From positions 18,834 through 82,833 of the forward strand of contig MCFE01000390.1 in the NCBI GenBank assembly GCA_002104905.1: DNA of 64,000 nt, written 5' to 3'. Below, piece by piece: positions 17,930-64,000 of the stretch (the stretch's first letter is position 1; each line of letters starts with the position of its first letter). Both the position numbers and the translations under genes were made by a program. Source of the DNA: Basidiobolus meristosporus CBS 931.73. Its lineage: Eukaryota > Basidiobolomycota > Basidiobolomycetes > Basidiobolales > Basidiobolaceae. The notes below the pieces were generated by a model. It was not told the DNA's origin, did no database searches, and saw only the letters and a program-made list of their open reading frames with translations.

Positions 17930-19181
17930 GCTTCAGGAGAAAGAGTTCAACAATCCTCTGTGGTTGGCCCTGGTTGATCTGACAAATTGGGCATGTTTTC
18001 ACTAACTTATGAATTTTTTGTTTTATTCTAGGACATCATGCTCAGGCTTTTACAGGGATATAAGTTCCTGAAATTCTAAGATGTCCATATCCATTATGTA
18101 GCTTATGTATTGAATCTAGGCAAGCAGCATAAGGGCAATAGCCAATAGGGCTTCCATCAGCAATTTGGCAGAGTATTTTATCCTGTACTGCAAACTTGCT
18201 GGCTTCATCCTGGATAATCTTCTTGATCTCTTCATCCACGTCATTAGTAATAGCTTTGTCCTCCAAGTACTTTGGTAATAAGCTAGGCCTATCTAATTCA
18301 TGCACCAATTTGAGTTATACAACTTGCTCTAGTCATAATAAGGTATTATTAACTGTGTTGTTTTTCCCAGGGCAGTAAGCAATCTCCAAGTCAAATTGCT
18401 GCGCATATTCACTCCATCTTGTCATTATTCTGGATAGTACCTTCTGAGTAAGCACATACTTGAGTGAGGCATGATCAGTCCTCACAGTTCACTTTACTTC
18501 TTCAATGCAGCATCACCAGGTCATGAAGCAGTTTATTAATGCCAGCATCTCCTTCTCATGCATTGGATAGTTTTGTTCTGCAGAGTGCAGCTTCTTGGAC
18601 TCAAAGCAGCTGGGTAGTTCTTTCCCTCATATTCTTGTCTCACTACTCCGCCAATTGCATTGTCTGAGCATCTGTAAGCAGAGTAAGCTCTATTCTGAAG
18701 TCTGTTATTCTTAAGCTTGGCAGCTGAGCAAGTTTACTCTTGAGCATCTGAAAGGCAGTCCCACCAACTATGTCCCACTTCAAGGTGGTGTCTTTCTTGA
18801 AAATACCAGTTAAAGGAGCTGCAATACTTGCAAAGGACTTGACAAATTTCCAACAACAGGAAGCCATTCCAACAAATGATCTGAGTTCTGATATGCTATG
18901 GGTCTGCTTCAGATTCTTGATTGCTTCAACCTCCTTAGGGTCTAAGGTCACTCCTGTGCTAGTCACTATGTATCCTAGGTATCTGACATGTTCCTTCAAG
19001 AATTCACACTTTGCCAGCATGACACATAGCTTGTTCTCTCTTTGCTTCTTTAAGACCATTCTAATATGCTCCAAGTGGTCCTCTTCTCTGTTGCTGTATA
19101 TCATTATGTCACTTGGATAATTTACCACAAACCTATCTAGGTACTCCTGAAAGACTGTTAGCATCAAGGTTATGAATGTTG
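17930..19181 (-). pseudogene. Gypsy-A integrase, RNase H and RT, broken
   Basis: Reading right to left: reverse transcriptase and RNase H (MLTVFQEYLDRFV onwards, 18643-19167, with the catalytic DD region altered), the RNase H tether (near 18340-18600), and the integrase zinc region (HKLHNGYGHLRISGT, 18042-18308). Frame breaks and stops are frequent. The upstream part of the same element continues at 24065-24700 beyond a Copia insertion at 19182-24064. Confidence 0.85.
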
Positions 19182-49555: not shown

Positions 49556-50986
49556 ATGCAGGTTTCAAAGCAAACCACACCGATGACAAACACCACTGCC
49601 GTCCAAGACCACGGGTATTATACACAGAGGCAAGAGCCGGCCATGGAGTTTTACGCTGATCAGGATAAAACGGAAAAGAGCATACGCGCGAATTCCTGGC
49701 TAGACCTTCTGCCTTCCTTACCAAAAAAACCTTTGGCCATTGTTTGCATGATGCTAGTTGTTGTTGCAATAGGCTATGAGTGGATGTATGTGGGTCTCCT
49801 CTGGGATCCTCTTGGGCGCATTCCTCATCTTACAGTAGCACTAGTCAATCAAGACAAGGGGTTCAACCTGCCGGATACATCGCCGCTGAAGCAGCTGACC
49901 ACCGACCTCTTCAATGGAGAGAGTGCAGGGGCGTTTATTGCCAGCACCATAATGGATCCGGAGCTTCCTATCTATCACACCTTCAAATGGAGTCAGCTAC
50001 CGGACACCACATCTAGAGATCAGGCAATCGAACATGTGAGCCGAGGAGATTCCTGGGCTTTGCTGTACATCCCTTCGAATTTCTCGCAGAATTTCTTGTC
50101 CGCTACTGACCGTGCTACCCGCCAACCTTGGGAAGCTGAATGGATCTCTGATGAAGGCCGAAATCCAAATACCCAGATGTTCTTGTTGGACGCCAAGATG
50201 CAGGTGTTTTCGGCGTTCTCTACTTCGTTGGCTAGTCAATTTCTATCCAGCAAGGCAGGCCCTATACTAGTTCAAGCATTTGATCCCACTTTCTGGACAA
50301 ACTCGCTTCAGGTACACGAGACGACTCTTCATCCTCTGCAGGATTACGGATCGAATTTTGCAAGCTACCTGTCATTTGTTGTCTCGTACATTGTATGCCT
50401 GCTGACGGTAGTCATGGTGTACAGGCTATCGAGAATTGGCGACATACTCAAGTCAAGGAGGTATCCCGCGTTTCGCGTCGTAGTAACCTGGAGACTAGTC
50501 GCGGCATTCATAGCCTTGCTTCAGAGTATGGTTATCATCATACCGTTTGTTAGCTTGAAGCATCACCAGTTTGAATGGAAAAACGCTGGATATGCCATCG
50601 CCTTCATTTGGTATACCAGCTTGGCTTTCCAAAGCACCCTGTTTCTGGCGGCCAACATCTTCACCCCGGAGCTCTTCCAAATCCCAAGTGCTCTCTTCAT
50701 GATCTTGCAGCTGACTACATCCGGTGGTATCTATGCTTTAGAGCTGCAGCCAGGCTTCGCCAGAATAGGGGAGGCATTCCCGATGTACTACGGTATCCGT
50801 GGGCTGCGAAGCATCTTTTACGGATCATTGACACACAAGATGTGGATCAACTGGTTGGTCATCACCGCTTGGATCGTTATTCCAGGAGGTATATCTACAC
50901 TTTGGACCAGACGCAAGATCAAGACTCTTAGATTAGACGATTGGACTAAGGACCAGAGTGGCTCTCTAGGGGAGCGGTCTTGTTAA
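49556..50986 (+). CDS. SNG1-like membrane protein (DUF3533)
   Basis: A 476-residue membrane protein without introns. One hydrophobic segment lies at about 60-82 (AIVCMMLVVVAIGY). A long loop, probably outside the cytoplasm, follows (about 83-268, with HLTVALVNQDKG near 91-102 as in the DUF3533/YhgE-Pip family). Further membrane segments lie at about 269-290, 309-332, 343-366, 374-396 and 429-449. This arrangement, one segment plus loop plus five, fits fungal SNG1 proteins, which are linked to resistance to nitrosoguanidine and affect membrane lipid asymmetry in yeast. The exact substrate is unknown. The start is uncertain: a TATA-like box lies just before this ATG, so Met10 (49583) or Met30 (49643) may be the real start. 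Confidence 0.85.
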   Translation: MQVSKQTTPMTNTTAVQDHGYYTQRQEPAMEFYADQDKTEKSIRANSWLDLLPSLPKKPLAIVCMMLVVVAIGYEWMYVGLLWDPLGRIPHLTVALVNQDKGFNLPDTSPLKQLTTDLFNGESAGAFIASTIMDPELPIYHTFKWSQLPDTTSRDQAIEHVSRGDSWALLYIPSNFSQNFLSATDRATRQPWEAEWISDEGRNPNTQMFLLDAKMQVFSAFSTSLASQFLSSKAGPILVQAFDPTFWTNSLQVHETTLHPLQDYGSNFASYLSFVVSYIVCLLTVVMVYRLSRIGDILKSRRYPAFRVVVTWRLVAAFIALLQSMVIIIPFVSLKHHQFEWKNAGYAIAFIWYTSLAFQSTLFLAANIFTPELFQIPSALFMILQLTTSGGIYALELQPGFARIGEAFPMYYGIRGLRSIFYGSLTHKMWINWLVITAWIVIPGGISTLWTRRKIKTLRLDDWTKDQSGSLGERSC

Positions 50987-51810: not shown

Positions 51811-51816
51811 TGCTTA

Positions 51817-52740
51817 AGGGGGGGGGGTGAGACAGTCACCAACAGGTGAAATCCTTATTTCAGCTGAAACAAAGAAGCCAGCGCTACTGTTGTAGCTTTG
51901 ATACAAGAGTGTGTAGCTGAGAAGAATTTGTAGGTAAGTTGACAAGGAGAGATGATAGTTCTTCAGTGCTCATGACACTGTTCAATGGGAAGGGGGGTAG
52001 CAAGAGGGGTAAGAATGATATGTAAACAACATTAATAAGGGGAATATGATATGGATTGATATTCATTATAAAGGGAGTGTGCTGCTTTGGATATTGCTGC
52101 TAAAGGTCTGTCAAGTACTTCAGGTAGGCCAGCTTGGGGTTTTCTGACTGCAGAATACATAGCTCAAACTTCTAAAGGCATGGTCAGTAGGTTCCCAGAA
52201 AAACTGGTCAGAGACATTTTGAGAGGATTGCTTAGCAATACTTTTGTCAAGCACTACCTCCAGAGTGTGATGGTTGATAAATCCCATGTTAACAATCTTA
52301 GATAAGTTGTAACCTGGTTGCTTGAGATACATCCTATACTCAGATATAGGAATAAACTCCACATTGGCAAAGTAGCAGACAGCCCAGTCAGTAGCAGGAG
52401 GTAAATCAGAAGTGGCAGGAAACTTTCTTTTTGTCTTAGGCGGAGCAGCAGGATGTCTTAAGGAAGCAGGAACAAACTTTTTGACAGCTTCAGAGCAGGA
52501 AGAGTGAGCAGGAGCAGATGAATCTTGGGGAGTCTTGTTGACAGGAAGAGTAGGCACTGGGACAATAGATTCTTGCAGATCAGAGAAGGCAGAAAACAGC
52601 TTTTGTACTTGTTTCTTGAGTAGTGCATTTTCAGCTTCAACAAGTGCAAGCCTTTCCTCAAGGAAGAAAATCCGAAGGGAATGGAGTGAAGGCATAAGAA
52701 ATAAGAAGAAGAGGGAAGGAAAGGGTGGGTGGGTTTTGTT
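51817..52740 (-). mobile_element. Telomere-type LINE, internally deleted (ORF1 fused to RT end)
   Basis: A minus-strand element. Its 3' end has the shared tail (hairpin 51836-51849) followed by a long C-run. The 3' part, 51850-52140, matches the RT carboxyl end at 61195-61460. The 5' part, 52150-52695, is ORF1: MPSLHSLRIFFLEERLALVE then FPATSDLPPATDWAVCYFAN. ORF1 breaks off within the DHAF block and passes straight into the RT end, so most of the RT gene is deleted. Confidence 0.8.
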
Positions 52741-53105
52741 TGGGCAGACCAGACCTCCAGCATCTTATAAAAAATTGCAGAGTTTTGAATTTTAAACAAA
52801 AATGCTTTTGAATAAAGCTTGGGAAAAGTTTTATTTTCTTATGCAAAGAAGATTAGACAATTGTCAAGACTTATTGTAAAAACAACTTCAGGACAAATAA
52901 CTCCCAAGGTTATTTTGACAAAGAGCGGTTTCATCAGTGTCCAATTCTTTATAGCATGTAGGTGCCCCTTATACCTGAAGAAAATGTAGGTTAGTCTAAG
53001 GGGTTTTGTGAACTTAAGTGACGTAGTTGCTTTTGGCATGCTTATTGGTTCCAAAAGTGGAAGTTGTTCTAAGCTTGGTTTCAGTGAAGTGAGGTGATAT
53101 TTTTC
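52740..53105. other. Unassigned sequence between two LINE fragments
   Basis: AT-rich, with no frame or repeat recognised. The left part may be the 5' leader of the preceding LINE, but it does not match the 5' ends at 60644-60711 or 63594-63784. Confidence 0.4.
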
Positions 53106-53481
53106 TTAGGGGGAGGGAAAGTCACCAAGGTAGGTGAAATCTTTATTTGATTTCAGACAAGCCTAACTATAAATAAAGAAGCCAGCTGGGAATCAAAGAT
53201 TCCCAAAGTAAACACTAAGTTGAATATGAATAAATCTAAGCTAAAGTTAAGGCAGTATCCCAGAGTACACTGGAGTTCAGGTTCATGGGGGAGTGAAGTA
53301 GATAAGCTTGAGAGATATAATAATCTTTGCGGAAGCGGGTAACAGCAGGTGAAGGGGAGTTGTTGATAAGTGAAGTGAATCTTGAGAGCAGAGATTCCTC
53401 TAATGGGAAGGTCTTGTAGACTGGAGAATTAGGAAACTCTTTAAAGGCATGGTCAGTAGGTTCCCAGAAAAACTGGTCAGT
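53106..53481 (-). mobile_element. LINE ORF1-element 3' fragment
   Basis: It begins TTAGGGGGAGGG and carries the hairpin tail (53122-53137). It closely matches 62665-63030, covering the 3' UTR and the ORF1 carboxyl end. It is cut at 53481 by inverted Gypsy-B LTR sequence. Confidence 0.85.
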
Positions 53482-53840
53482 GTTGTATCCAAGAGAAAAG
53501 TGTAATAAAACTCTTGGATGAGCTAACTGAACCTAAGTGATAACTAAGTGCAGAATCTTAGAATTGTCAAGGGTGACAGAAATATTAGCAGAGAAGTTCT
53601 GGTCTAATATTGGTTTTATATGTAGTTGAGTTGGGCTATAAAGGCAACAGAGTTGGTTTGCTATACAGGCTAGGCTTGGTGTTCTTGGGAATACTAGATG
53701 TGCTAGGCTTGGGTGGAAACTAGAATGGAACTGTTGAATTCTTAATTTTGCTGAAGCACAATTTTAATTTTGTTGGGACACACACTAAACCAAACAGTTC
53801 AGTAAACTTTATTTATACTTTTCTGATTGAGTTGCATTAG
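53482..53840 (-). repeat. Inverted partial Gypsy-B LTR
   Basis: The reverse complement of the 3' half of the LTR at 54179-54537. It shares the ACTTTTCTCTTGGATACAAC end but is clearly diverged from it. It abuts the full LTR head to head at 53841. Confidence 0.8.
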
Positions 53841-54537
53841 TGTTGTGCATCAACATTTAAAACTTAGCCAATTTTACTCCGTTTGAAAATCTAGTACCCT
53901 AACTGATTTTCCCTAACCCAAACATAACAAATCCCAGTTACAGTTTATTTTATCCCACCTCAGAATCTATTTTTAGCAATCACACCTGATCTATTTTCAA
54001 ATGGTCATTACATTATCAACCTATCTGCCAAGCCTTCCCAGGTGATTAGTCATCTGAGATCTATCCAAACATGGTGCAGTTGCCAAGACATCAGTTGATT
54101 GATGATGTAATTTTCATTTATATTATGCACCTATGAACACCCAAATTGATTTCAATCAATCCAGTCCCTTGGTGCTTACTAATTCAACTTGATCAGAAAA
54201 GTATAAATAAAGTTTACTGAACCTTTTGGTTTAGTGTGTGTCTCAACGAAATTAAGATTCTGTCTCAGCAAAAATAAGAATCCAACAATTCTGTTCCAGT
54301 TTCTATCCAAGCCTAGTATATCTAGCACTCCAAAGAACACCAAGCCTAGCCTGCCTAGCAAACAAATATCATTGCCTTTATAGCCAACCCAGCTATATCC
54401 AAGACCAATATTAGATCAGAATCTTTCTGCTAATATTTCCGCCACTCTCTGACAATTCTAAGATTCTGCACTTAATTGTCCCTTTGGTTCAGTTAAACCA
54501 TTCAAGAGCTTTATTACACTTTCTCTTGGATACAACA
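53841..54537 (+). repeat. Gypsy-B 5' LTR, 697 bp
   Basis: It runs from TGTTGTGCATCAAC to GGATACAACA. A TATA box (AAGTATAAATAAAG) lies near 54200. It is followed by a T-run and the gag start at 54579. No tRNA primer site could be recognised. Confidence 0.88.
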
Positions 54538-54578
54538 TTTTTTTTTGTTGAATTCCGTTACATTCAGCCAATTAGAAG

Positions 54579-56432
54579 ATGTCCTCAGCAGCAAGCAATC
54601 CAAACCTTTCCATGTTGGAAGAAGCCAGAAGAAATCAGGAAGAACTTACTGAACAGCTTGAAAACATCATGCTTGAAAGAAATACCATGATGCTTGAGCA
54701 CTCAAAGCTTGCCAAAACAAGATCTGATAATCACCGTAGAGATGAACTCCTTGAAGTTATATCTGGTTACCAAGATGAAATTGGAATAATTAAGGAAGCA
54801 CTGGAGAATATTGCCATAGTAATTGACAGCATTGAAAATCCACCAAGCCTTGCTCTGCATCAGCCACCAAGAAGTCATGCCTTTGAATCCTCCAGATCTA
54901 CATCTCCTTCTAGACCTGCCCCGGTGGTTGTCCCAAGATCCTTGCCTGTTTATGCTGAAGGCACCAATGCCATCAAGAATCCAACTGAGTTTCTTTACAA
55001 GTTTAGTCACATCTTAGCTGCACACCAGCTAGACCCTGACACCAACTGGGCTAGACTTCTGCCTCTCTGTCTCACAATGCAAGATGCTGACTGGGTTGAA
55101 GTGAACATTCCTTCCAATAGTACGTGGAAAATTGCCCAAAACCTCTTTTGCAGCCATTTTGAAGATCCTCTCAAGAAAGCACATCTGAACTGCGACTTAT
55201 GGAAAACTAAAATGCAAAAAGGTGAATCTGTGCAACACTTCTGTGATAGATTCCAAAGACAAATGAGATTAGCTGGAGTTAGTGATGATAATCCATCGCT
55301 TACTGCTCATTTTCTTTCAAACTTTTCACACCAGCTACAGAGCAATATTGCTATTGTCAAAGCATGCAACCTTGCATGTACCTATGACCAGATCTCAGAG
55401 ATATGTACACTGGAAATCACCTTGACTGCAGCTGTTAGCCAGACTTCAGGCAGCTCAACCCAATATCCCACAACAGCCGGAAAAGAGACCAGTCATGTGA
55501 CCAAGAAGCAGTCAACCGCTACTAAGCACTGTGAGCTTCATGGAAAATGCTATCATTCTACCAGTGAATGCAAAGGCATCACCAAGCAGTCAAACAAGTC
55601 AGGAAACACCGCAGAAAAGCAGCAAAACACCAAAACTGATAATCCATATGCTGATGACAAGTGCTTTAAATGTGGCAATAGGGGACATAGATCACCTGCC
55701 TGTCCTGAGAAGAACTCCACACCATCAGCCAAAACTACCCAGATCCTTGATGATCATTCAGCCAATGATACAATGGGGTATGAAGAAGCATATGAAGAAC
55801 TTACAGTTCAAGATTATCACAACCTCTTTGAGTTTCCGGCTAAAATTGCAACTGTTCAAGAAAAGAAGCAACCAATCACACAGCTCAAAGCCATAGAAGT
55901 GCCACTCACCCTCAATGGCCAATCATACGTAGCACTACTGGATACTGGATCATCCAACTCTATTGTATCACCCAATGTAGTCAGAGAACTCAATTTGGAG
56001 ATAGAAAAACGACCAGGAAAAATCATTCTTGCAGCTAAGGATCTCTCAGCCCCAAGAATTGGCATTACCAACCCAATCAACATACATTGTGGCTCAGTAA
56101 CCATAATCCATCAGATGGAAGTGATTGACATACCAGATGGACCTCAGGTAGTCATTGGTCTGGACACCTTCACCAAACTTGGCTTTCACATAGGCGGACT
56201 ACCGGTTTCCTATCCAGGAATCACTAAAGTCTCAGCCGCTCATAATGGATCAAATCCCAGTGATTATCTCATCCCAACCGGAAGAAGAAGAGTTAACCCC
56301 AACTTTTCAAGAATATTCTCAATCAGTCAAATTGGATATTCAGCCGGCCATAGAGAGAAATCAGGCCATTCCAAGGAACAGCTTCTGCACCATCCCAGAA
56401 TCCATTGTTGCACTAGAGACCCCACCTGGTGA
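54579..56432 (+). CDS. Gypsy-B gag and protease
   Basis: A 617-codon frame. The amino end (about residues 10-85) is a likely coiled coil. A capsid-like region follows at about 130-285. A Cys/His-rich stretch lies at about 318-332. A CX2CX4HX4C zinc knuckle is at 362-375 (CFKCGNRGHRSPAC), and the retropepsin motif LLDTGSS lies near 453-459. The frame overlaps the RT frame at 56245-56432; the last part (after about residue 560) has no family resemblance and is probably read-on after a +1 frame change. Gag packages the element RNA; the protease processes the polyprotein. Whether the change of frame is programmed or a mutation cannot be decided here. Confidence 0.85.
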   Translation: MSSAASNPNLSMLEEARRNQEELTEQLENIMLERNTMMLEHSKLAKTRSDNHRRDELLEVISGYQDEIGIIKEALENIAIVIDSIENPPSLALHQPPRSHAFESSRSTSPSRPAPVVVPRSLPVYAEGTNAIKNPTEFLYKFSHILAAHQLDPDTNWARLLPLCLTMQDADWVEVNIPSNSTWKIAQNLFCSHFEDPLKKAHLNCDLWKTKMQKGESVQHFCDRFQRQMRLAGVSDDNPSLTAHFLSNFSHQLQSNIAIVKACNLACTYDQISEICTLEITLTAAVSQTSGSSTQYPTTAGKETSHVTKKQSTATKHCELHGKCYHSTSECKGITKQSNKSGNTAEKQQNTKTDNPYADDKCFKCGNRGHRSPACPEKNSTPSAKTTQILDDHSANDTMGYEEAYEELTVQDYHNLFEFPAKIATVQEKKQPITQLKAIEVPLTLNGQSYVALLDTGSSNSIVSPNVVRELNLEIEKRPGKIILAAKDLSAPRIGITNPINIHCGSVTIIHQMEVIDIPDGPQVVIGLDTFTKLGFHIGGLPVSYPGITKVSAAHNGSNPSDYLIPTGRRRVNPNFSRIFSISQIGYSAGHREKSGHSKEQLLHHPRIHCCTRDPTW

Positions 56433-57231
56433 GTCAACATGGAGGAGGCAATACCCAATTCCGCATTCATGTCAACACTTAGTTGATGAGATAGTCCAAA
56501 AATGGGCTGACAATGGAATTATCACTCAAGCCCCTGTCAACACAACATTCAACAGCCCTTTGACGCTTGCACCAAAGAAAGATGCTGATGGAAACCTAAC
56601 CCTGAAGAGACCCTGTTTGGACCCCAGACCTCTGAACAAGCTTCTCCAAGATGACAAGTTTCCAATTCCAAGAATCCAAGATATCTTTTCCGCACTATCA
56701 GGAGCAAAAGTATTCTCCAAGTTGGACTTGAAGGATGCATATCACCAATTCCAGATCCATCCTGATCATCAGCATAAGACTGCCTTTACTTGGAATAATA
56801 TGCAATGGATGTTTCAGGGAGCTCCCTTTGGCCTAAAGACACTTACCAGCAAGTTCCAGAGAGTCATGACTATAATACTCAAGAATGCACCATACGCATT
56901 GGTATTTGTTGATGATGTCATCATATTTTCCACTAACCGTGATGATCATGCAACCCATGTCACTGATGTAATCAACAGACTGACAACTGCTGGACTGATT
57001 CTCAATGCTGAAAAGTGCAGTTTTGCCCGCCTCAAAATCAATCTACTTGGATTTATAGTCACACCAGCTGGCCACCAATTAGATCCTTTCAAACTGGTCA
57101 ATATCCCAGAATGGCCAAAACCCACTAGCGCCAAGCAACTTCAACATTATCTTGGAGTGATTCAACTATTTCAGGGAACACATACCACTCATGTCCTCAT
57201 TGAGTGCCCCTTTAGATGCATTACGCCATAG
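56245..57231 (+). CDS. Gypsy-B reverse transcriptase frame
   Basis: A 328-codon frame lying +1 relative to gag-protease. It contains the linker before RT (FCTIPESIVALETPPGEST), then RT blocks CLDPRPLNKLLQDDKFPIPR and FSKLDLKDAYHQFQI, the QWMFQGAPFGL block and the catalytic FVDDVIIFS (YXDD-type with Phe). The RT thumb continues to LGVIQL, where a one-base excess in a T-run (about 57168-57170) shifts the frame. The proper continuation is in the next frame from 57191. The first ATG need not be a start; this part is normally made as a fusion. Confidence 0.85.
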   Translation: MDQIPVIISSQPEEEELTPTFQEYSQSVKLDIQPAIERNQAIPRNSFCTIPESIVALETPPGESTWRRQYPIPHSCQHLVDEIVQKWADNGIITQAPVNTTFNSPLTLAPKKDADGNLTLKRPCLDPRPLNKLLQDDKFPIPRIQDIFSALSGAKVFSKLDLKDAYHQFQIHPDHQHKTAFTWNNMQWMFQGAPFGLKTLTSKFQRVMTIILKNAPYALVFVDDVIIFSTNRDDHATHVTDVINRLTTAGLILNAEKCSFARLKINLLGFIVTPAGHQLDPFKLVNIPEWPKPTSAKQLQHYLGVIQLFQGTHTTHVLIECPFRCITP

Positions 57232-59065
57232 CCCTGATCTCACCTCAGCCTGGAACAAGACTCATGACCAAGCCTTTGAGTCACTCTGCCAACTGCTTCC
57301 ACAAGCACCCACCTTATCCTACCCAGACTTTACTAAGCCCTTTGTTGTTGCTACAGATGCATCTAATGTTGGGTTAGGGGCAGTCCTCTATCAAGATGAA
57401 GACCAAAATCCGCCTCACTGGATCTCTTTCCAAGCCAGGTCCCTACAACCTGCTGAGAGAAACTACTCTGCTACCAAGAAGGAGCTACTTGCCATAGTCT
57501 TTGCCTTGAAGAAGTTTCATCAGTATCTATGGGGTAATCCTTTTACCTTGTACACTGACCACCAAGCCCTTGTCTATATCCACACTCAGAAGACTCTGAC
57601 TCCAATGCTTACCAACTGGCTTGATACTCTACTTGATTATGAATATACAGTTATTCATCGCCCAGGAATTCTCAACATCCTTCCTGACCACCTGTCAAGA
57701 CTTTTTCCAACTTCACCTTGGGAGGGACATGTGATTACTGATGTAATCAGTAAACTCTCTACAACTTCCAAAATAATTCCTCAACTGGATTCAGCAACTT
57801 GGAAAATCCCACCTGAAGAACAAAGGAAAACATTGATACAGAGGAGTCATTTACTTGGCCACTTTGGAGCTGACACACTTATGAAGAAGCTACACTCTGA
57901 TGGATATCACTGGCCAAATATCAAAGTTGACTGCTTAGAATTTGTCAAGTCCTGCAGAGAATGTCAACTTTACAATATCAGCCGCCATGGATTTCACCCT
58001 TTGAGCCCCATCCATGCAAGCCTTCCTATGGATCATATTGCAATTGATCTAGCTGGACCTTTCACCACTAGTGATGATGGTAATCACTACCTCTTTGTAA
58101 TTGTGGATGTCTGCACACGTTTTGTCTTCCTCAAAGCTATCCCAGACAAGTATGCTGCCACTATTGCACAAGAACTATTCAAGCTCTTCTGCCTTTTTGG
58201 ATTCCCTAAGGTCATTCAATCGGATAATGGAACAGAATTTGTGAATCACGTGATCAAAGCCCTTTGCCAGAATAGCGCCATTGATCACCGTCTGATCACT
58301 CCATATCATCCCAAAGCTAATGGACTGGCTGAAAGACATGTTCAGACCTCAATGAACATCGTCAGGAAATCTATCAAAGGTATCAAGAAGAATTGGGACA
58401 AGTACATTCCAACTGTACAATATGCTATCAACACCAAAATTGCCGCTCTACATGGATCAACACCATTTTCCTTGATGTTTGGAAGAAGATACAACCACTT
58501 TGGAGACTACCAGAATACAGAGTTAGCAAGTTTGAATACAGATAAGCTAAAGAACCGGCTTGAGTACCTTACCAACATTGTCTACCCTGCTATCAGTGCC
58601 AGAAGTAAGGCCTCTCAGCAAAAGATGACTTCAACGTACGCCTCAAGACACAGGAACAGCAGCTTCCCAGATGGGTCATATGTCATGACACTAGATCCAA
58701 TCCGGCAATCTAAGCTTGACCCCAAGTATGAAGGACCATTCAAGGTTATCAGACGCACTACTGGAGGATCTTATGTACTTCAGGATAACACTGGAGCACT
58801 GCTACCCGAAAACTTTCCACCTTCTTCACTCAAACTTATTTCCCAAGACCCAGTAACTTCAGAATCCTATGAAGTTGAAGCTATTGTGGACCATGATGGA
58901 GAAGAACCAAATTGCCTTTATTTAGTCAAGTGGAAAGGCTATGATGCCAAACACAACACCTGGGAACCTTACACCAACTTTGATGATGTTGCCATTATTG
59001 ATCAGTATTGGAGCCGTAGAGGAACCCAGAAGGGATCAAAAAACTCCTCTTCCGGAAGGAAGTGA
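57191..59065 (+). CDS. Gypsy-B RNase H, integrase and chromodomain frame
   Basis: A 624-codon frame continuing the RT after a one-base shift. RNase H begins at ATDASNVGLGAVLYQDE (Asp56). The integrase zinc site is the HLLGHFGADTL region with CRECQ. The catalytic core contains DLAGPF, QSDNGTEFVN and AERHVQ, so Asp, Asp and Glu are present. A GPF-type carboxyl module (KYEGPFKVI) precedes a chromodomain at about 560-608 (CLYLVKWKGYDAKHNTWEP). Chromodomains in such chromoviruses guide integration to marked chromatin. The stop codon directly abuts the 3' LTR at 59066. This part is intact, but the element as a whole is blocked by the upstream frame change. Confidence 0.88.
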   Translation: MSSLSAPLDALRHSPDLTSAWNKTHDQAFESLCQLLPQAPTLSYPDFTKPFVVATDASNVGLGAVLYQDEDQNPPHWISFQARSLQPAERNYSATKKELLAIVFALKKFHQYLWGNPFTLYTDHQALVYIHTQKTLTPMLTNWLDTLLDYEYTVIHRPGILNILPDHLSRLFPTSPWEGHVITDVISKLSTTSKIIPQLDSATWKIPPEEQRKTLIQRSHLLGHFGADTLMKKLHSDGYHWPNIKVDCLEFVKSCRECQLYNISRHGFHPLSPIHASLPMDHIAIDLAGPFTTSDDGNHYLFVIVDVCTRFVFLKAIPDKYAATIAQELFKLFCLFGFPKVIQSDNGTEFVNHVIKALCQNSAIDHRLITPYHPKANGLAERHVQTSMNIVRKSIKGIKKNWDKYIPTVQYAINTKIAALHGSTPFSLMFGRRYNHFGDYQNTELASLNTDKLKNRLEYLTNIVYPAISARSKASQQKMTSTYASRHRNSSFPDGSYVMTLDPIRQSKLDPKYEGPFKVIRRTTGGSYVLQDNTGALLPENFPPSSLKLISQDPVTSESYEVEAIVDHDGEEPNCLYLVKWKGYDAKHNTWEPYTNFDDVAIIDQYWSRRGTQKGSKNSSSGRK

Positions 59066-59246
59066 TGTTGTGCATCAACATTTAAAACTTAGCCAATTTT
59101 ACTCCGTTTGAAAATCTAGTACCCTAACTGATTTTCCCTAACCCAAACATAACAAATCCCAGTTACAGTTTATTTTATCCCACCTCAGAATCTATTTTTA
59201 GCGATCACACCTGATCTATTTTCAAATGGTCATTACGTTATCAACC
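59066..59246 (+). repeat. Gypsy-B 3' LTR, first 181 bp only
   Basis: It matches 53841-54020 almost perfectly and stops at TATCAACC, where TTAGGGTTAGGGGG and a LINE-type tail begin. The rest of the LTR is missing. The chromosome may have been broken here and healed with telomere repeats. Confidence 0.88.
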
Positions 59247-59739
59247 TTAGGGTTAGGGGGAGGAAAGTCACCAAGTGGTGAAATCTTTATTTACTTATGA
59301 CAAGTATCTAAAGAAGCCAAGTTAATCTGAAGTAATTCCTAGAAAGCTAGGTCTGAGAGATATCTTCCTGGTAAGCCAGGTCTGAGAGTTGAGAAGCTGA
59401 GTGGTACTATATTTCTTAGTTAGCTAGGTCTGAGAGAGGTTTCCTGGAAAGCCAGGCCTGAGAAGTGAGAATCTGAATATATCTGAGCTAAGTTATACTG
59501 GTTTGCGGTAGCTGAATTGTGGCCGGAATGGCCAGTAGACTGGGGGAACTGAGATGGTTTTCTGGGCAATCACTGGCCAAATTTACTAGGCAAATCTGGC
59601 CAATTAGCATTTCAGGGATTTCAGCCAATCAGAGCCCCTACTTTGCCTGATGGTTGATCAAGCCATCTCCCAATGAGCACACATCAATTTATTAATCAAA
59701 TTTTGTTGGATCCAGGATTTGAACCCACAACCATGGGTA
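59247..59739 (-). mobile_element. Non-coding SINE-like element, copy 1
   Basis: It is preceded by TTAGGGTTAGGGGG. The 3' tail with hairpin (59268-59281) and AATAAAG block is shared with the LINEs, but there is no coding frame. The body contains repeated GAGAG/AGCTAGGTCTGAGAG-type words. Near the 5' end, the minus strand at 59715-59725 reads GGTTCAAATCC, a perfect RNA polymerase III B-box. No A-box was seen, so the 5' end may be truncated. Confidence 0.6.
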
Positions 59740-60711
59740 TTAGGGTTAGGGGGGGGATGATCATCACCAAAGGGTGAAATCTTTATTTAAATAATAAATA
59801 AAGAAGCCAAGTTTGAATATGAATATCTGAGATGCAGGAAGCCTACAAGATAAACTTGGACTTTGCTGTATCCCAAATATCCTCAATATCAAAGTCTAGA
59901 GGAGAGTGTAGCAAGACTGCTTGTTCACTGTAGTATTTCTTGAGGAAGTTTGTGACTTGAAGGGAAGGAGAGTTTTTCAACAAGCTGGTAAATCTTTTGA
60001 GGAGTTCTTTTTCCAGAGAGAATGGCACAAAGAGTGGAATGTCCAAATGATGTCTGAATATATGCTCTGAGAGCTCCCAATCCAGCATATTTTTGACTTC
60101 TTCTGTAAAATCTTCAACAATATCTTTGTCAAGAATAACTTCCAAGAGATCCCTGGCAATGTACTGAATGTTAATAATCTTGGGCATATGAATACCTAGG
60201 TCCTTGAGGTAGTTTCTTTGTTCTGATATTGGGAGATATCCTGCATTTCTGAAATAGCAAACAGCCCAGTTGGCAGTAGGAGGAGTATCAGGGCTGACAG
60301 GGAATCTTCTTCTAGCTTTAGAGTGCAGTGGCTTAGGAGACTGTCTTGATGCAAGGGCAGCTGGTTTTGGATGAGCTTGAAGTGCTTGGGAGTAGGTCTG
60401 AGTACAAGTAGTAGAAGTTCCTGGTTGCTCAGAATTTTCAGATTGACTGGATGAAGAGCTAATTGAGGGGTTGCAAGGTAAGGAAGAAGCTGAAAGAGAA
60501 GTGGAGAGGGCTGGGTGAAGTTCAGAAAGAGTTTTGAAAAGAATTTGGATCTGAGATTTCAACATTGAGTTTTCAGCTTCAAGAAGAGAAACTCTTTGTT
60601 CAAGGTAAGAAGTCTGTAAAGAGTGAAAGTTGGGCAAAGACATGGAAGTAGTAAATAAGAAGAAAGGAGTAGTTGGGGTGGGCGGGTGGGAAAATAGGTA
60701 AGAAGAAACAA
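59740..60711 (-). mobile_element. ORF1-only telomere-type element, subfamily D
   Basis: A compact element of about 1 kb. The telomere-like ATTAGGGTTAGGGGGGGG marks its 3' side and GGGTTAGGGG its 5' side (60714). It has the shared hairpin tail (59764-59777), a short 3' UTR, one intact ORF1 and a 5' leader. No RT sequence is present, and nothing suggests a deletion scar inside. Confidence 0.75.
59843..60643 (-). CDS. LINE ORF1-type protein (coiled coil plus RRM-like), subfamily D
   Basis: An intact 266-residue protein. Residues about 5-45 form a leucine-zipper-like coiled coil (YLEQRVSLLEAENSMLKSQI). A Ser/Pro-rich linker follows (about 48-105). A compact region, about 115-205, starts FPVSPDTPPTANWAVCYFRN and includes LLEVILDKDIV, resembling the RRM-like fold found in ORF1 proteins and amino regions of fungal LINEs. 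It is clearly homologous to, but well diverged from, the ORF1 at 62790-63593. Expected role: an RNA-binding chaperone of the retroelement RNP. The start Met matches the position of MPSLHSL in the other copy. Confidence 0.8.
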   Translation of the reverse strand: MSLPNFHSLQTSYLEQRVSLLEAENSMLKSQIQILFKTLSELHPALSTSLSASSLPCNPSISSSSSQSENSEQPGTSTTCTQTYSQALQAHPKPAALASRQSPKPLHSKARRRFPVSPDTPPTANWAVCYFRNAGYLPISEQRNYLKDLGIHMPKIINIQYIARDLLEVILDKDIVEDFTEEVKNMLDWELSEHIFRHHLDIPLFVPFSLEKELLKRFTSLLKNSPSLQVTNFLKKYYSEQAVLLHSPLDFDIEDIWDTAKSKFIL

Positions 60712-61130
60712 GAGGGTTAGGGGGGGGAGGAAAGTCACCAAGTGGTGAAATCTTTATTTACTTATGACAAGTATCTAAAGAAGCCAAGTTAATCTGAAGT
60801 TATTCCTAGAAAGCTAGGTCTGAGAGATATCTTCCTGGTAAGCCAGGTCTGAGAGTTGAGAAGCTGAGTGGTACTATATTTCCTAGTTAGCTAGGTCTGA
60901 GAGTGGTTTCCTGGAAAGCCAGGCCTGAGAAGTGAGAATCTGAATATATCTGAGCTAAGTTATACTGGTTTGCGGTAGCTGAATTGTGGCCGGAATGGCC
61001 AGTAGACTGGGGGAACTGAGATGTATTTCTGGGCGATCACTGGCCAAATTTACTAGGCAAATCTGGCCAAGTAGCATTTCGAGGATTCCAGCCAATCAGA
61101 GCCTTTACTTTGCCCAATGGTTGATCAAGC
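60712..61130 (-). mobile_element. Non-coding SINE-like element, copy 2
   Basis: It is preceded by GGGTTAGGGGGGGG, with hairpin 60735-60748. It matches 59261-59665 with few differences and ends, 5'-truncated, at GATCAAGC. TTAGGGGGGG of the next element follows at 61131. No coding frame. Confidence 0.75.
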
Positions 61131-62660
61131 TTAGGGGGGGAGACAGTCACCAACAGGTGAAATCTTTATTTCAGTTGAAACAAAGAAGCCAGCGCTACTG
61201 TTGTAGCTTTGATACAAGAGTGTGTAGCTGAGGGGAATTTGTAGGTAAGTTAATAAGAAGTGATGATAGTTCTTCAGTGCTCAAGACACTGTTCAGTGGG
61301 AAGGGGGGTAGTAAGAGAGGTAAGAATGACTTGTGAACAACATTAATGAGGGGAATGTGATAAGGATTGATATTCATCATAAAGGGAGTGTGCTGCTGCA
61401 GATATTGCTGCCAAAGGTCTGTCAAGTACTTCAGGTAGGCCAGCTTGGGTTTTTCTGACTGCAGAATATAGTGAGCAAACTTCTTGACTTCAGGATCTCC
61501 AAGTATAGTTCTCCAGCAGGAGCCAGGTGTTGTGTGGTGTGTTCTCTTCCAGGCCTTAATCAGTGGGTTGTTGCAGTTGTGAAGTCTGAGGTATAATCTG
61601 GCTCTAAGGTAGAGAAGTCTGATCTTATAGGGCATAAACCCAAAAGCACCAAGAATAGCATGTCTGTAGGGGCATTCAGGCAAATGAGGCACCAAGGAGG
61701 TAATGCACCATACTGCAAACTTGTCAAGCTTAGTGCAGTCTCTAGAAGTAAGAGAGAGAAGTGGTAAGCCAAATTCCAGGACAAGGAAGACAAACTGCTT
61801 GAGTAGAAGGAGGCAGCTGGGAGCTGAAGTTGTAGGAGGAGTAACAGCCAGTAGCTTGTGGAGTGCCTGTCTTGCCAGGATAATTCTCTTCTTCAGGTGT
61901 GCTCCAGAGTCTAGTCCAGTAGGAAGGAAAGGAAAGCCAAGATATGTAGCAGAAACCTGAGCAGGTAGAGTGGAGTTCTCCAAGTTGATGGGAGAGCCCA
62001 AAGGTACTGTCTTTGCAATGGAAAGCTGGAGATTATTCTTCTGCAGATACTGGTGGATGGTCTGGGAGTCTTGTTGCACATTGGAGGAGGATATTCTGAT
62101 GTCATCAGCAAAGAGAGTAACCAGGCAGTCAGCTGAGAGTCTTGGGAAATCATTCAGGAAGATGGCAAACAGTATAGGACCAAGCACAGAGCCTTGAACC
62201 ACTCCATTAGGAACTGAGAACACAGCTGATTGCTCACTTGGGTGCAGAATTCTTGCTTGTGGATCCAGAAACAGAGACCTGACAAGGAGGGTGAGAGAGG
62301 TACTGGAGAAGCATTGCAACTTGGACCAAAGCAGATTTCTGTCAACTGAATCAAAGGCCTTAGTAATATCAAACAGAACAGAGGGATACTTGCACTGGAG
62401 AGAGTGATCTTGGCTAAGTATGACTGCATATTCCAAGGAGAGGCCAGGAACAAAGCCAAACTGTGCAGGATGAAACTTGAGAGAGTCAGAGTAGAGCTCC
62501 TGAGCAAGCAGAAGCTCAAACACCTTTCTGCAGGTGGGCAGCAGAGATATTGGCCTGTAGGAGCTAGGATCCAGGTGCTTTCCTTTACCCTTGTACAGTG
62601 GCAGAACATTTGCAAAGGACCATTCCTCAGGAGTAGAAAGCTGGGCTGAGCATTGCTGAA
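61131..62660 (-). mobile_element. LINE, 5'-truncated, with RT
   Basis: It begins (3' end) with TTAGGGGGGG and the hairpin tail 61147-61160. Most of the element is the RT frame. The 5' end is cut at about 62660, where the 3' end of the next element abuts. Endonuclease and ORF1 are missing. Confidence 0.88.
61195..62660 (-). CDS. Non-LTR reverse transcriptase, 5'-truncated
   Basis: The frame (about 488 codons inside this element) starts within the RT palm and has no native start. Blocks in order: SSYRPISLLPTCRKVFELLL, then QFGFVPGLSLEYAV, DITKAFDSVDRNLLW, GVVQGSVLGPILFAIFLNDF and the catalytic TLFADDIRISS. Thumb and carboxyl extension follow to LHTLVSKLQQ. The block order fits the jockey/CR1/Tad-like group of APE-type LINEs; the upstream endonuclease, which would prove it, is absent. 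RT would prime DNA synthesis at the nicked target. It is uninterrupted to its stop, so truncation seems to be its only defect. The frame extends a few codons to 62682 into the neighbouring element. Confidence 0.88.
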
Positions 62661-62789
62661 ATAGGGGAGGGAAAGTCACCAAGGTAGGTGAAATCTTTAT
62701 TTGATTTCAGACAAGTCTAACTACAAATAAAGAAGCCAGCAGGGAATAGAAGATTCCCAAAGTAAACACTAAGTTGAATATGAATAAAT

Positions 62790-63518
62790 CTAAGCTAAAG
62801 TTAAGGCAGTATCCCAGAGTACACTGGAGTTCAGGTTCATGGGGGAGTGAAGTAGATAAGCTTGAGAGATATAATAATCTTTGAGGAAGTGGGTAACAGC
62901 AGGTGAAGGGGAGTTTTTGATAAGTGAAGTGAATCTTGAGAGCAGAGATTCCTCCAATGAGAAGGTCTTGTAAACTGGAGAATCAGGAAACTCTTTAAAG
63001 GCATGGTCAGTAGGTTCCCAGTAAAACTGGTCAGAGACATTTTGAGAGAACTCTTTAGCAATACTTTTGTCAAGTACTACCTCCAGAGTGTGATTGTTGA
63101 TAAATCTCATATTAACAATCTTGGATAAATTGTAACCTTGTTGCTTGAGATACATCCTATGCTCAGATATAGGAATGAACTCCACATTGGCAAAGTAGCA
63201 GACAGTCCAGTCAGTAGCAGGAGGTAAATCAGAAGTGGCAGGAAACTTTCTTTTAGTCTTGGGAGGAGCAGCAGGATGTCTTGAGGAAGCAGGAACAGGC
63301 TTTTTGACAGCTTCAGAGTAGGAAAAGTGAGCAGGAGCAGATGATTCTTGGGGAGTCTTGTTGACAGGAACAGCTGGCAGAGAGACAATAGATTCTTGCA
63401 GATCAGAAAAGGCAGAAAACAGCTTTTGAACTTGTTTCTTGAGTAAAGCATTTTCAGCTTCAACAAGTGCAAGCCTTTCCTCAAGGAAGGAAATCTGAAG
63501 GGAATGGAGTGAAGGCAT
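62790..63518 (-). CDS. LINE ORF1-type protein (coiled coil plus RRM-like), subfamily A
   Basis: An intact 242-residue protein from the Met at 63518 (MPSLHSLQISFLEER). The frame is open to 63593, but the shorter start aligns with the subfamily D protein. A coiled coil lies at about 8-45 (LALVEAENALLKKQVQKL). A Ser/Pro/Lys-rich linker follows. The RRM-like region begins at FPATSDLPPATDWTVCYFAN and includes HTLEVVLDKSIA. The carboxyl part has SLIKNSPSPAVTHFLKDYY. It is likely an RNA-binding partner of the LINE RT. The fragment at 53106 and the fusion at 51817 belong to the same subfamily. No RT frame follows before the 3' tail. Confidence 0.82.
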   Translation of the reverse strand: MPSLHSLQISFLEERLALVEAENALLKKQVQKLFSAFSDLQESIVSLPAVPVNKTPQESSAPAHFSYSEAVKKPVPASSRHPAAPPKTKRKFPATSDLPPATDWTVCYFANVEFIPISEHRMYLKQQGYNLSKIVNMRFINNHTLEVVLDKSIAKEFSQNVSDQFYWEPTDHAFKEFPDSPVYKTFSLEESLLSRFTSLIKNSPSPAVTHFLKDYYISQAYLLHSPMNLNSSVLWDTALTLA

Positions 63519-63560
63519 AAGAAATAAGAAGAAGAGGGTAAGGTGGGGTGGGTGGGTGGG

Positions 63561-63784
63561 AAAATTAGCAGGGAGAACAGAAGGAAGGAGCAAAAATTCC
63601 AGAAGTCAGAATTTATAGATGGATGGACAAGGGTAGATGGATGGATTATTCCTGGGTTAGGAAAATTAGCAGGGAGAAGAGAAGGAAGGAGCAAAAATTC
63701 CAGAAGTCAGAATTTATAGATGGATGGACAAGGGTAGATGGATGGATTATTCCTGGGTTAGGAAAATTAGCAGGGAGAAGAGAA
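63561..63784 (-). repeat. 101-bp tandem repeats in the LINE 5' leader
   Basis: AAAATTAGCAGGGAGAA begins at 63561, 63662 and 63763. Two full 101-bp units and a 22-base third piece lie between ORF1 and the telomere. Such 5' monomers act as promoters in some LINEs. Confidence 0.88.
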
Positions 63785-64000
63785 GGGTTAGGGTTAGGGT
63801 TAGGGTTAGGGTTAGGGTTAGGGTTAGGGTTAGGGTTAGGGTTAGGGTTAGGGTTAGGGTTAGGGTTAGGGTTAGGGTTAGGGTTAGGGTTAGGGTTAGG
63901 GTTAGGGTTAGGGTTAGGGTTAGGGTTAGGGTTAGGGTTAGGGTTAGGGTTAGGGTTAGGGTTAGGGTTAGGGTTAGGGTTAGGGTTAGGGTTAGGGTTA
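63785..64000 (+). repeat. Telomere, (TTAGGG)36
   Basis: 216 bases of perfect TTAGGG repeat run to the window end, with the G-rich strand running 5'->3' to the right, as expected at a right-hand chromosome end. Confidence 0.98.

Follow-up and report, generated by a model that had tools for sequence, protein, structure and literature searches.

What kind of element repeatedly accumulates at the end of a chromosome, with its 5' end facing the tip, in a fungus whose chromosomes also end in TTAGGG repeats? The question is raised by the last part of a 64,000-nucleotide stretch of Basidiobolus meristosporus CBS 931.73 (assembly GCA_002104905.1, contig MCFE01000390.1, forward strand, positions 18,834 to 82,833; hereafter the window, numbered from its first letter), in which an earlier reading of the letters alone (the original prediction) had described an array of non-long terminal repeat (non-LTR) retroelements inserted in telomere repeats. 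Our findings suggest, with a probability that we put at about two in three, that the array belongs to a telomere-specific consortium of five non-LTR families, which are added tail first and outward to short chromosome ends, healed by telomerase and mobilised through a shared 3' tail, with the reverse transcriptase (RT) of their long interspersed nuclear elements (LINEs) made by UGA readthrough. As predicted, seven element 3' ends occur on the minus strand: a covariance model of the tail found exactly seven full tails in the window, with 3' ends at 51829, 53115, 59261, 59757, 60728, 61140 and 62669 (E 1.5e-16 to 1.4e-13, scores that are high by construction, since the model was built from 19 sequences with the window tails among them), and the next match (E 0.036) was partial and on the plus strand, leaving no eighth full tail. 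All seven elements have the same orientation, 5' end toward the chromosome tip. Five of the ends sit on TTAGGG plus extra Gs, and the two junctions described as weaker, at 51.82 and 62.66 kb, were indeed a long G-run after CTTAA and AAATAGGGG, respectively. The array closes with 216 bases of TTAGGG (63785-64000), the right end of the window being the end of the 82,833-base contig. The proposal of a telomere-specific LINE with an APE-type domain was supported as well, but the array does not consist of one LINE family, as five families share its tail.

The common tail of these families (A, B, C, D and E) has the layout TGGCTTCTTT...AAATAAAGATTTCACC-loop-GGTGA followed by a C-rich stretch, and it folds as two hairpins in each of them. 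In 19 distinct tails, 98.4% of the pair cells hold a standard pair, compared with 95.5% when the tails are shuffled and no more than 51.6% when they are slid; 8 cells, which all belong to a single pair of helix 1, are changed on both sides, versus 2.2 in shuffles. A search of the whole assembly (89 Mb in 1,311 contigs) retrieved at least 1,557 exact tails (1,432 forward and 125 reverse), including 384 of family A and 585 of family B, and a backward control pattern gave 0 matches. The expected TTAGGG was present within 20 nt upstream of the stem in 86 of the first 97 tails among the matches listed (C1-C91; two match lists compared by hand). For loci picked by sequence match, independent of their position, 131 of the 159 tails in 56 fetched stretches directly follow TTAGGG, with TAGGG at 14 of the other 28, and 58 of 60 loci lie no more than 20 kb from the contig end faced by their 5' end, in agreement with a location at many chromosome ends. 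On contigs longer than 40 kb, 46 of 48 loci are within 20 kb of the faced end, against 8.2 expected. The polarity is taken from this agreement between element strand and nearer contig end, because most of the strand bias of the tails is explained by the assembly itself, which is oriented almost wholly telomere-right ((TTAGGG)10 has 5,144 forward and 56 reverse matches, and 7 in the reverse control of this pattern). The array in C558 is internal and that in C726 inverted, both being possible traces of chromosome-end fusion, and C558 bears the most diverged D copy (17.6%).

Two of the five families are LINEs. Family B, the LINE of the window, encodes an open reading frame 1 (ORF1) protein and, besides the RT, an APE-type endonuclease, and family E is known from pieces, namely an RT piece adjoining the tail in C713 and the ORF1-ORF2 border in C957 and C467. 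The genome holds at least 86 RT copies with amino acid identity of 99% or more, and the exact 922-codon frame is found in 30 of the 85 copies besides the window's own. The RT of B ORF2 matches Pfam PF00078 (E 2.6e-25), and its structure model (mean pLDDT 83.4) matches L1 ORF2p (E 1.5e-28), with a poor whole-length superposition (TM 0.45, root-mean-square deviation 28.9); L1 and R2 rank above telomerase among the structural matches. With an RVT_1-type RT of the LINE kind, no LTRs and many points of 5' truncation, B is a non-LTR (LINE-type) retrotransposon. Residues 1-213 of B ORF2 are modelled as an APE-type endonuclease fold, which in structure comparison matches the TRAS1 endonuclease, tied with R1Bm and APE1, and Pfam PF14529 gives 21.1 bits, under the cut-off of 27.4. 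Residues N8, Y93, D126, N128, D171, D201 and H202 are retained; the catalytic Glu, present in 35 of all 37 sequences covering the site, is replaced by Asp33 in B and the two close relatives that reach it. This predicted N-terminal fold, with motifs kept except for Glu to Asp33, places B among the APE-type LINEs. A Penelope-like origin was rejected on the endonuclease, since the N-terminal fold is of the APE type and the Pfam matches of B ORF2 at E <=10 comprise RVT_1 and two endo/exonuclease-phosphatase families only, with no GIY-YIG family among them. Among the best 120 of 1,007 matches to the RT protein, seven relatives stand out with 48-98% identity, the next being at 30%; two of them are named B. 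meristosporus and five come from the sources 'ena' and 'lgn', and the best named protein match belongs to B. meristosporus CBS 931.73 itself (98% over 26% of the query).

In three of the relatives, ORF1 was found on a contig of equal size to that of ORF2 (4,892, 4,636 and 5,665 bases), and ORF1 relatives named B. ranarum were also detected. The structure model of ORF1 (8-sequence alignment, mean pLDDT 61.6) displays at residues 352-413 the strand-helix-strand-strand-helix order of an RRM (pLDDT about 82-89), and against the PDB no match reached E 0.001 (best 0.076, best RRM 0.13). ORF1 and ORF2 are in frame in both LINEs, separated by a single UGA in the context UGA-CUA, and TGACTA is retained in all 13 distinct B copies and in both readable E copies. 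UGA-CUA is a viral readthrough context, and it is possible to infer from these sequences that ORF2 is produced via readthrough of the UGA. Termination-reinitiation, an alternative route to ORF2, occurs in SART1 (PMC5972666). ORF2 of the Basidiobolus LINEs has no start codon, which argues for readthrough over that route. A stem-loop after the UGA was rejected as part of the signal, being strong in B (7 of 998 sequence windows as stable or more) and not visible in E.

Families C and D, of about 1.1 and 0.96 kb, lack an RT and encode only an ORF1-like protein, which matches the C-terminal domain of B ORF1 (C, 36% identity, E 2e-21; D, 29%, E 6e-17). Between the C and D proteins, the proportions of nonsynonymous and synonymous differences are pN 0.34 and pS 0.76, and no dN/dS ratio is given because synonymous sites are saturated. 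A full-length relative of D exists in B. ranarum (61% over 99%), the 266-amino acid (aa) frame of D is intact in all four copies showing its start, and the 242-aa frame of C is intact in seven of nine copies, the exceptions being a chimera and a copy that runs off its stretch. C and D look like kept proteins rather than decaying deletion products, and the elements probably make use of them. Family A, of 519 nt, shows no evident coding role and bears near its 5' end, read as its complement, a B-box-like GGTTCAAATCC. Since searches for a tRNA-like head gave no gene with ARAGORN in five loci and no match with Rfam in three, A is referred to only as similar to a short interspersed nuclear element (SINE-like).

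The telomeric run ahead of the tails has a median of 6 nt and attains 60 nt or more in one of 159 cases; the terminal runs have a median of 198.5 nt and measure at least 138 nt in 17 of 18 stretches, these being the 18 of 57 oriented stretches with at least six units beyond the last tail. At element-to-element junctions less than 80 nt apart (n=88), 0, 1, 2, 3, 4 and 6 TTA units were counted in 13, 54, 10, 8, 2 and 1 cases, respectively, that is, at most one unit in 67 of 88; this count omits gaps above 80 nt, and the run-length measure was repeated on all 159 tails. Long internal tracts are rare (15 repeats in C565). Of 57 junctions between truncated 5' ends and telomere, 44 were clean, and in these the two overlap by a mean of 1.84 nt, against 0.75 for the null (1.65 nt minus one outlier of 10, the top of 2,000 null means being 1.30), a pattern expected if the ends are healed by telomerase or by some other process that uses microhomology. 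Of 92 truncation points in the fetched stretches, 82 occur in a single stretch each. G-run length varies: 59 of 60 copies of A have 4-10 Gs, 51 of 54 copies of B have 5-11 and all 20 copies of C have 4-6, a spread to be expected from slippage on an RNA with a C-rich end. An age gradient is weak in B (rho 0.33, p 0.012, n=56) and A (rho 0.30, p 0.022, n=60) and non-significant in C (n=23), D (n=10) and E (n=8). In the window, a Ty3/gypsy-like LTR element with a chromodomain integrase (53481..59247, plus strand, bounds approximate) is lodged in the array, and its distal repeat (59066-59247, 99% to 53841-54022) is cut short at TTAGGGTTAGGG and followed by an A copy, as a healed break would look. 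The genome encodes a telomerase RNA-binding domain, with two C880 stretches above the cut-off (best E 1.6e-8), one of them with an in-frame TAG.

These features of junctions, truncations and the LTR break favour outward addition to short ends. We therefore hypothesize that the LINE RT recognises the RNAs of all five families through the common two-hairpin tail, mobilising the others in trans, and primes cDNA synthesis at the G-rich-strand 3' end of a chromosome with few or no TTAGGG repeats. The C-rich RNA 3' end would pair at this primer, and the element would be appended outward, its 5' end becoming the new tip. The RT would often stop early, and telomerase could then extend the cDNA end from a short microhomology; a further element would be appendable while the cap is short, and the end would become refractory at about 20-40 repeats. 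The RT itself would be supplied by reading through the UGA that precedes ORF2.

Some observations weigh against this proposal. Helix 2 is invariant across the 19 tails, and two of five covariation measures are not above the shuffles (pairs with changes on both sides, 1 versus 0.9; further pair types, 4 versus 4.3). TTAGGG is not nearby in 11 of the 97 listed tails, two of the 60 loci (C558 and C726) are far from the end that they face, and only three of the 88 close junctions have no TTAGGG- or TAGGG-like seed, by eye. The terminal lengths derive from selected stretches, and ten of the 92 truncation points are common to two stretches, so that some junctions are not independent. By eye, the hairpin behind the UGA-CUA of B is not seen in E. 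The B endonuclease, with most of its motifs, may nick telomeric DNA, an activity unneeded for attachment to an end; and tracts of more than three repeats are fragile in Magnaporthe oryzae, so that short spacers also fit insertion followed by later loss (PMC7367193).

The last two points belong to the alternative that survives best, in which, as for TRAS, the endonuclease nicks the G-rich strand inside telomeric tracts, the element is inserted by target priming and interstitial tracts of more than about three repeats are later lost. The retained motif residues and the match with the TRAS1 endonuclease agree with such a course, as do the fragile tracts of M. oryzae and a newly acquired MoTeR1 only one TTAGGG unit from the telomere boundary (PMC7367193); nevertheless, with the catalytic Glu replaced by Asp33 in B and both covering relatives, three close junctions without a telomeric seed (by eye) and long internal tracts that do exist, as in C565, yet are rare, we consider it unlikely. 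Considerably less credible is that the arrays spread mainly by break-induced replication between ends from a few old insertions: most truncation points are private, the G-runs differ in length among copies and the RT proteins of at least 86 copies are 99% identical, whereas the truncation points shared by two stretches, the inverted and internal arrays of C726 and C558 and the alteration of MoTeR arrays by this process in M. oryzae (PMC7367193) are what it can claim. That the G-runs and TTAGGG are chance low-complexity sequence beside unrelated repeats, for which nothing speaks beyond the two weak junctions (51.82 and 62.66 kb), is ruled out for practical purposes by the genome-wide tail counts against an empty control, the TTAGGG at 131 of 159 junctions, the polarity and the location at contig ends.

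Outward addition of the Basidiobolus families invites comparison with known systems. HeT-A, TART and TAHRE of Drosophila likewise form head-to-tail arrays of one orientation at chromosome ends. HeT-A is not known to encode an RT, and the arrays of Basidiobolus similarly combine ORF1-only partners (C and D) with RT partners (B, and the E RT piece in C713). In contrast to Drosophila, Basidiobolus has a telomerase domain and (TTAGGG)n tips, and its families share one structured 3' tail, SINE-like member included. A LINE/SINE pair with a common hairpin tail is known in UnaL2/UnaSINE, in which the SINE also ends in the hairpin tail of the LINE; the Basidiobolus pair differs in being telomere-specific. 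In Drosophila, the gag genes are under selection, and TART and TAHRE, whose Pol comprises an APE-class endonuclease and an RT, need HeT-A Gag for telomere targeting (PMC5537684). It is a tentative idea, and in our judgement one that may well prove wrong, that this early-branching fungus, in addition to telomerase, possesses a second, HeT-A/TART-like system of end maintenance run by obligate telomere specialists that divide the work, in which a LINE RT made by UGA readthrough, a telomere-targeting ORF1 protein from RT-less elements and SINE-like riders would heal ends that telomerase has not yet lengthened.

TRAS and SART resemble LINE B of Basidiobolus in having two ORFs, endonuclease and RT in ORF2 and a telomeric repeat target. 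TRAS is reported to sit in the C-rich strand (PMC7265360), which would turn its 5' end to the tip as in the Basidiobolus elements; SART1 inserts within the repeats, of which it requires three, and reportedly does not operate at the terminus (PMC7265360), and silkworm telomere elements are reported as full length only (PMC4700185). Many Basidiobolus elements, in contrast, are 5'-truncated, the endonuclease Glu of B is Asp, RT-less partners are many, and instead of the poly(A) used by SART1 they have a hairpin and C-run tail. MoTeR and FoTeR share with Basidiobolus a fungal host, embedding in telomeres, a 5' end to the tip and short TTAGGG spacers, and MoTeR2 is a non-autonomous partner of MoTeR1 with a 3' end of 77 bp in common (PMC7367193, PMC12857005). 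However, their REL endonuclease is C-terminal to the RT, whereas that of B is predicted, from structure and Pfam matches, to be an N-terminal APE-type fold, and the private 786 bp of MoTeR2 are described as lacking an obvious function, whereas C and D encode a conserved ORF1-like protein. Athena-type Penelope-like elements are also 5'-truncated and joined at their 3' end to short telomeric repeats, which has been interpreted as transposition to uncapped ends (PMC5537684); they are reported to have no endonuclease and an RT nearest to telomerases, whereas the Basidiobolus RT matches L1 ORF2p and R2 and is accompanied by an APE-type domain. The telomere-associated elements catalogued in 2023 are SART/TRAS, GilM/GilT, Zepp1, MoTeR1, Tx1-1_ACar, Athena and the Drosophila set, MoTeR1 being the fungal entry (PMC10088271), and the matches listed in the openly licensed PMC literature included none on telomeric retroelements of Basidiobolus or Zoopagomycota.

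A telomere-specific LINE with an APE-type endonuclease is therefore of a known kind; what is new is the host lineage, the combination of coding RT-less partners and a SINE-like member on one tail, and the conservation of UGA-CUA between two LINE families. With it, the telomeric LINEs of fungi, of the REL type in MoTeR and FoTeR, would gain an APE-type member. The arrays bear on how telomeres shift from telomerase to retroelements, as in flies: at many Basidiobolus chromosome ends telomerase-type repeats and a retroelement consortium coexist. As RT-bearing, ORF1-only and non-coding members are recognisable by one tail, the division of labour, the choice of end and the handover between RT and telomerase become testable; the UGA-CUA conserved in both LINE families likewise offers a recoding signal that can be put to the test.

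In the window, the last long ORF ahead of the array (49556-50986) is a single open frame of 476 aa for a DUF3533/ABC-2-type membrane protein. The most proximal element is a B-family 3' fragment (51830..52173, minus strand, 91.9% to the reference copy; tail 51829-51880) with a 3' junction that is not clearly telomeric, fused to a C-family piece (52166..52734, minus; ORF 52120-52695). In this B/C chimera (51830-52734) the two alignments share 8 nt, which a template switch in reverse transcription could produce. A C-family 3' fragment (53114..53480, minus; tail 53115-53184) follows after TTAGGGGG, with the LTR element on its distal side. Around the proximal repeat of the latter there is an odd arrangement, in which 53841-54177 is flanked by inverted repeats of about 345 nt, split into three pieces with 80-88% complementarity. 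Beyond the LTR element lie, all on the minus strand, a 5'-truncated A copy (59261..59739, 3' end on TTAGGGTTAGGGGG; tail 59261-59319); the RT-less D reference element of 956 nt (59757..60712, 3' end on TTAGGGTTAGGGGGGG; tail 59757-59809), with its ORF1-like ORF of 266 aa at 59843..60643; a second 5'-truncated A copy (60728..61130, 3' end on GGGTTAGGGGGGGG; tail 60728-60786); and a 5'-truncated B LINE (61141..62660, 99.6% to the reference copy, 3' end on CTTAGGGGGGG; tail 61140-61191), which retains the C-terminal RT half (ORF 61195-62682). The outermost element is the C reference (62668..63784, minus, 1,117 nt, 3' end on AAATAGGGG; tail 62669-62738), whose ORF1-like ORF of 242 aa from the ATG, with no RT, lies at 62790..63518 on the minus strand, and the terminal (TTAGGG)n (63785..64000, plus) completes the contig. 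The 5' leader of this C element contains a 101-nt tandem repeat (2.3 copies, 63559-63786), comparable with the variable number tandem repeats of FoTeR. Elsewhere in the assembly, another repeat lies between telomeric tracts (L065, C427:130100-132600), without the shared tail and ending AATAAAGCACTAGA beside CCCTAA; its leader (CCCACCCACCC) resembles those of C and D, and a repeat with a similar start occurs in C784. Finally, a subtelomeric repeat starting TTAGGGTGTAGGTGTTATAGTAAGGGC was found behind some A copies (L003 and L015, in C80 and C1024), with a shorter start in L022 (C405).

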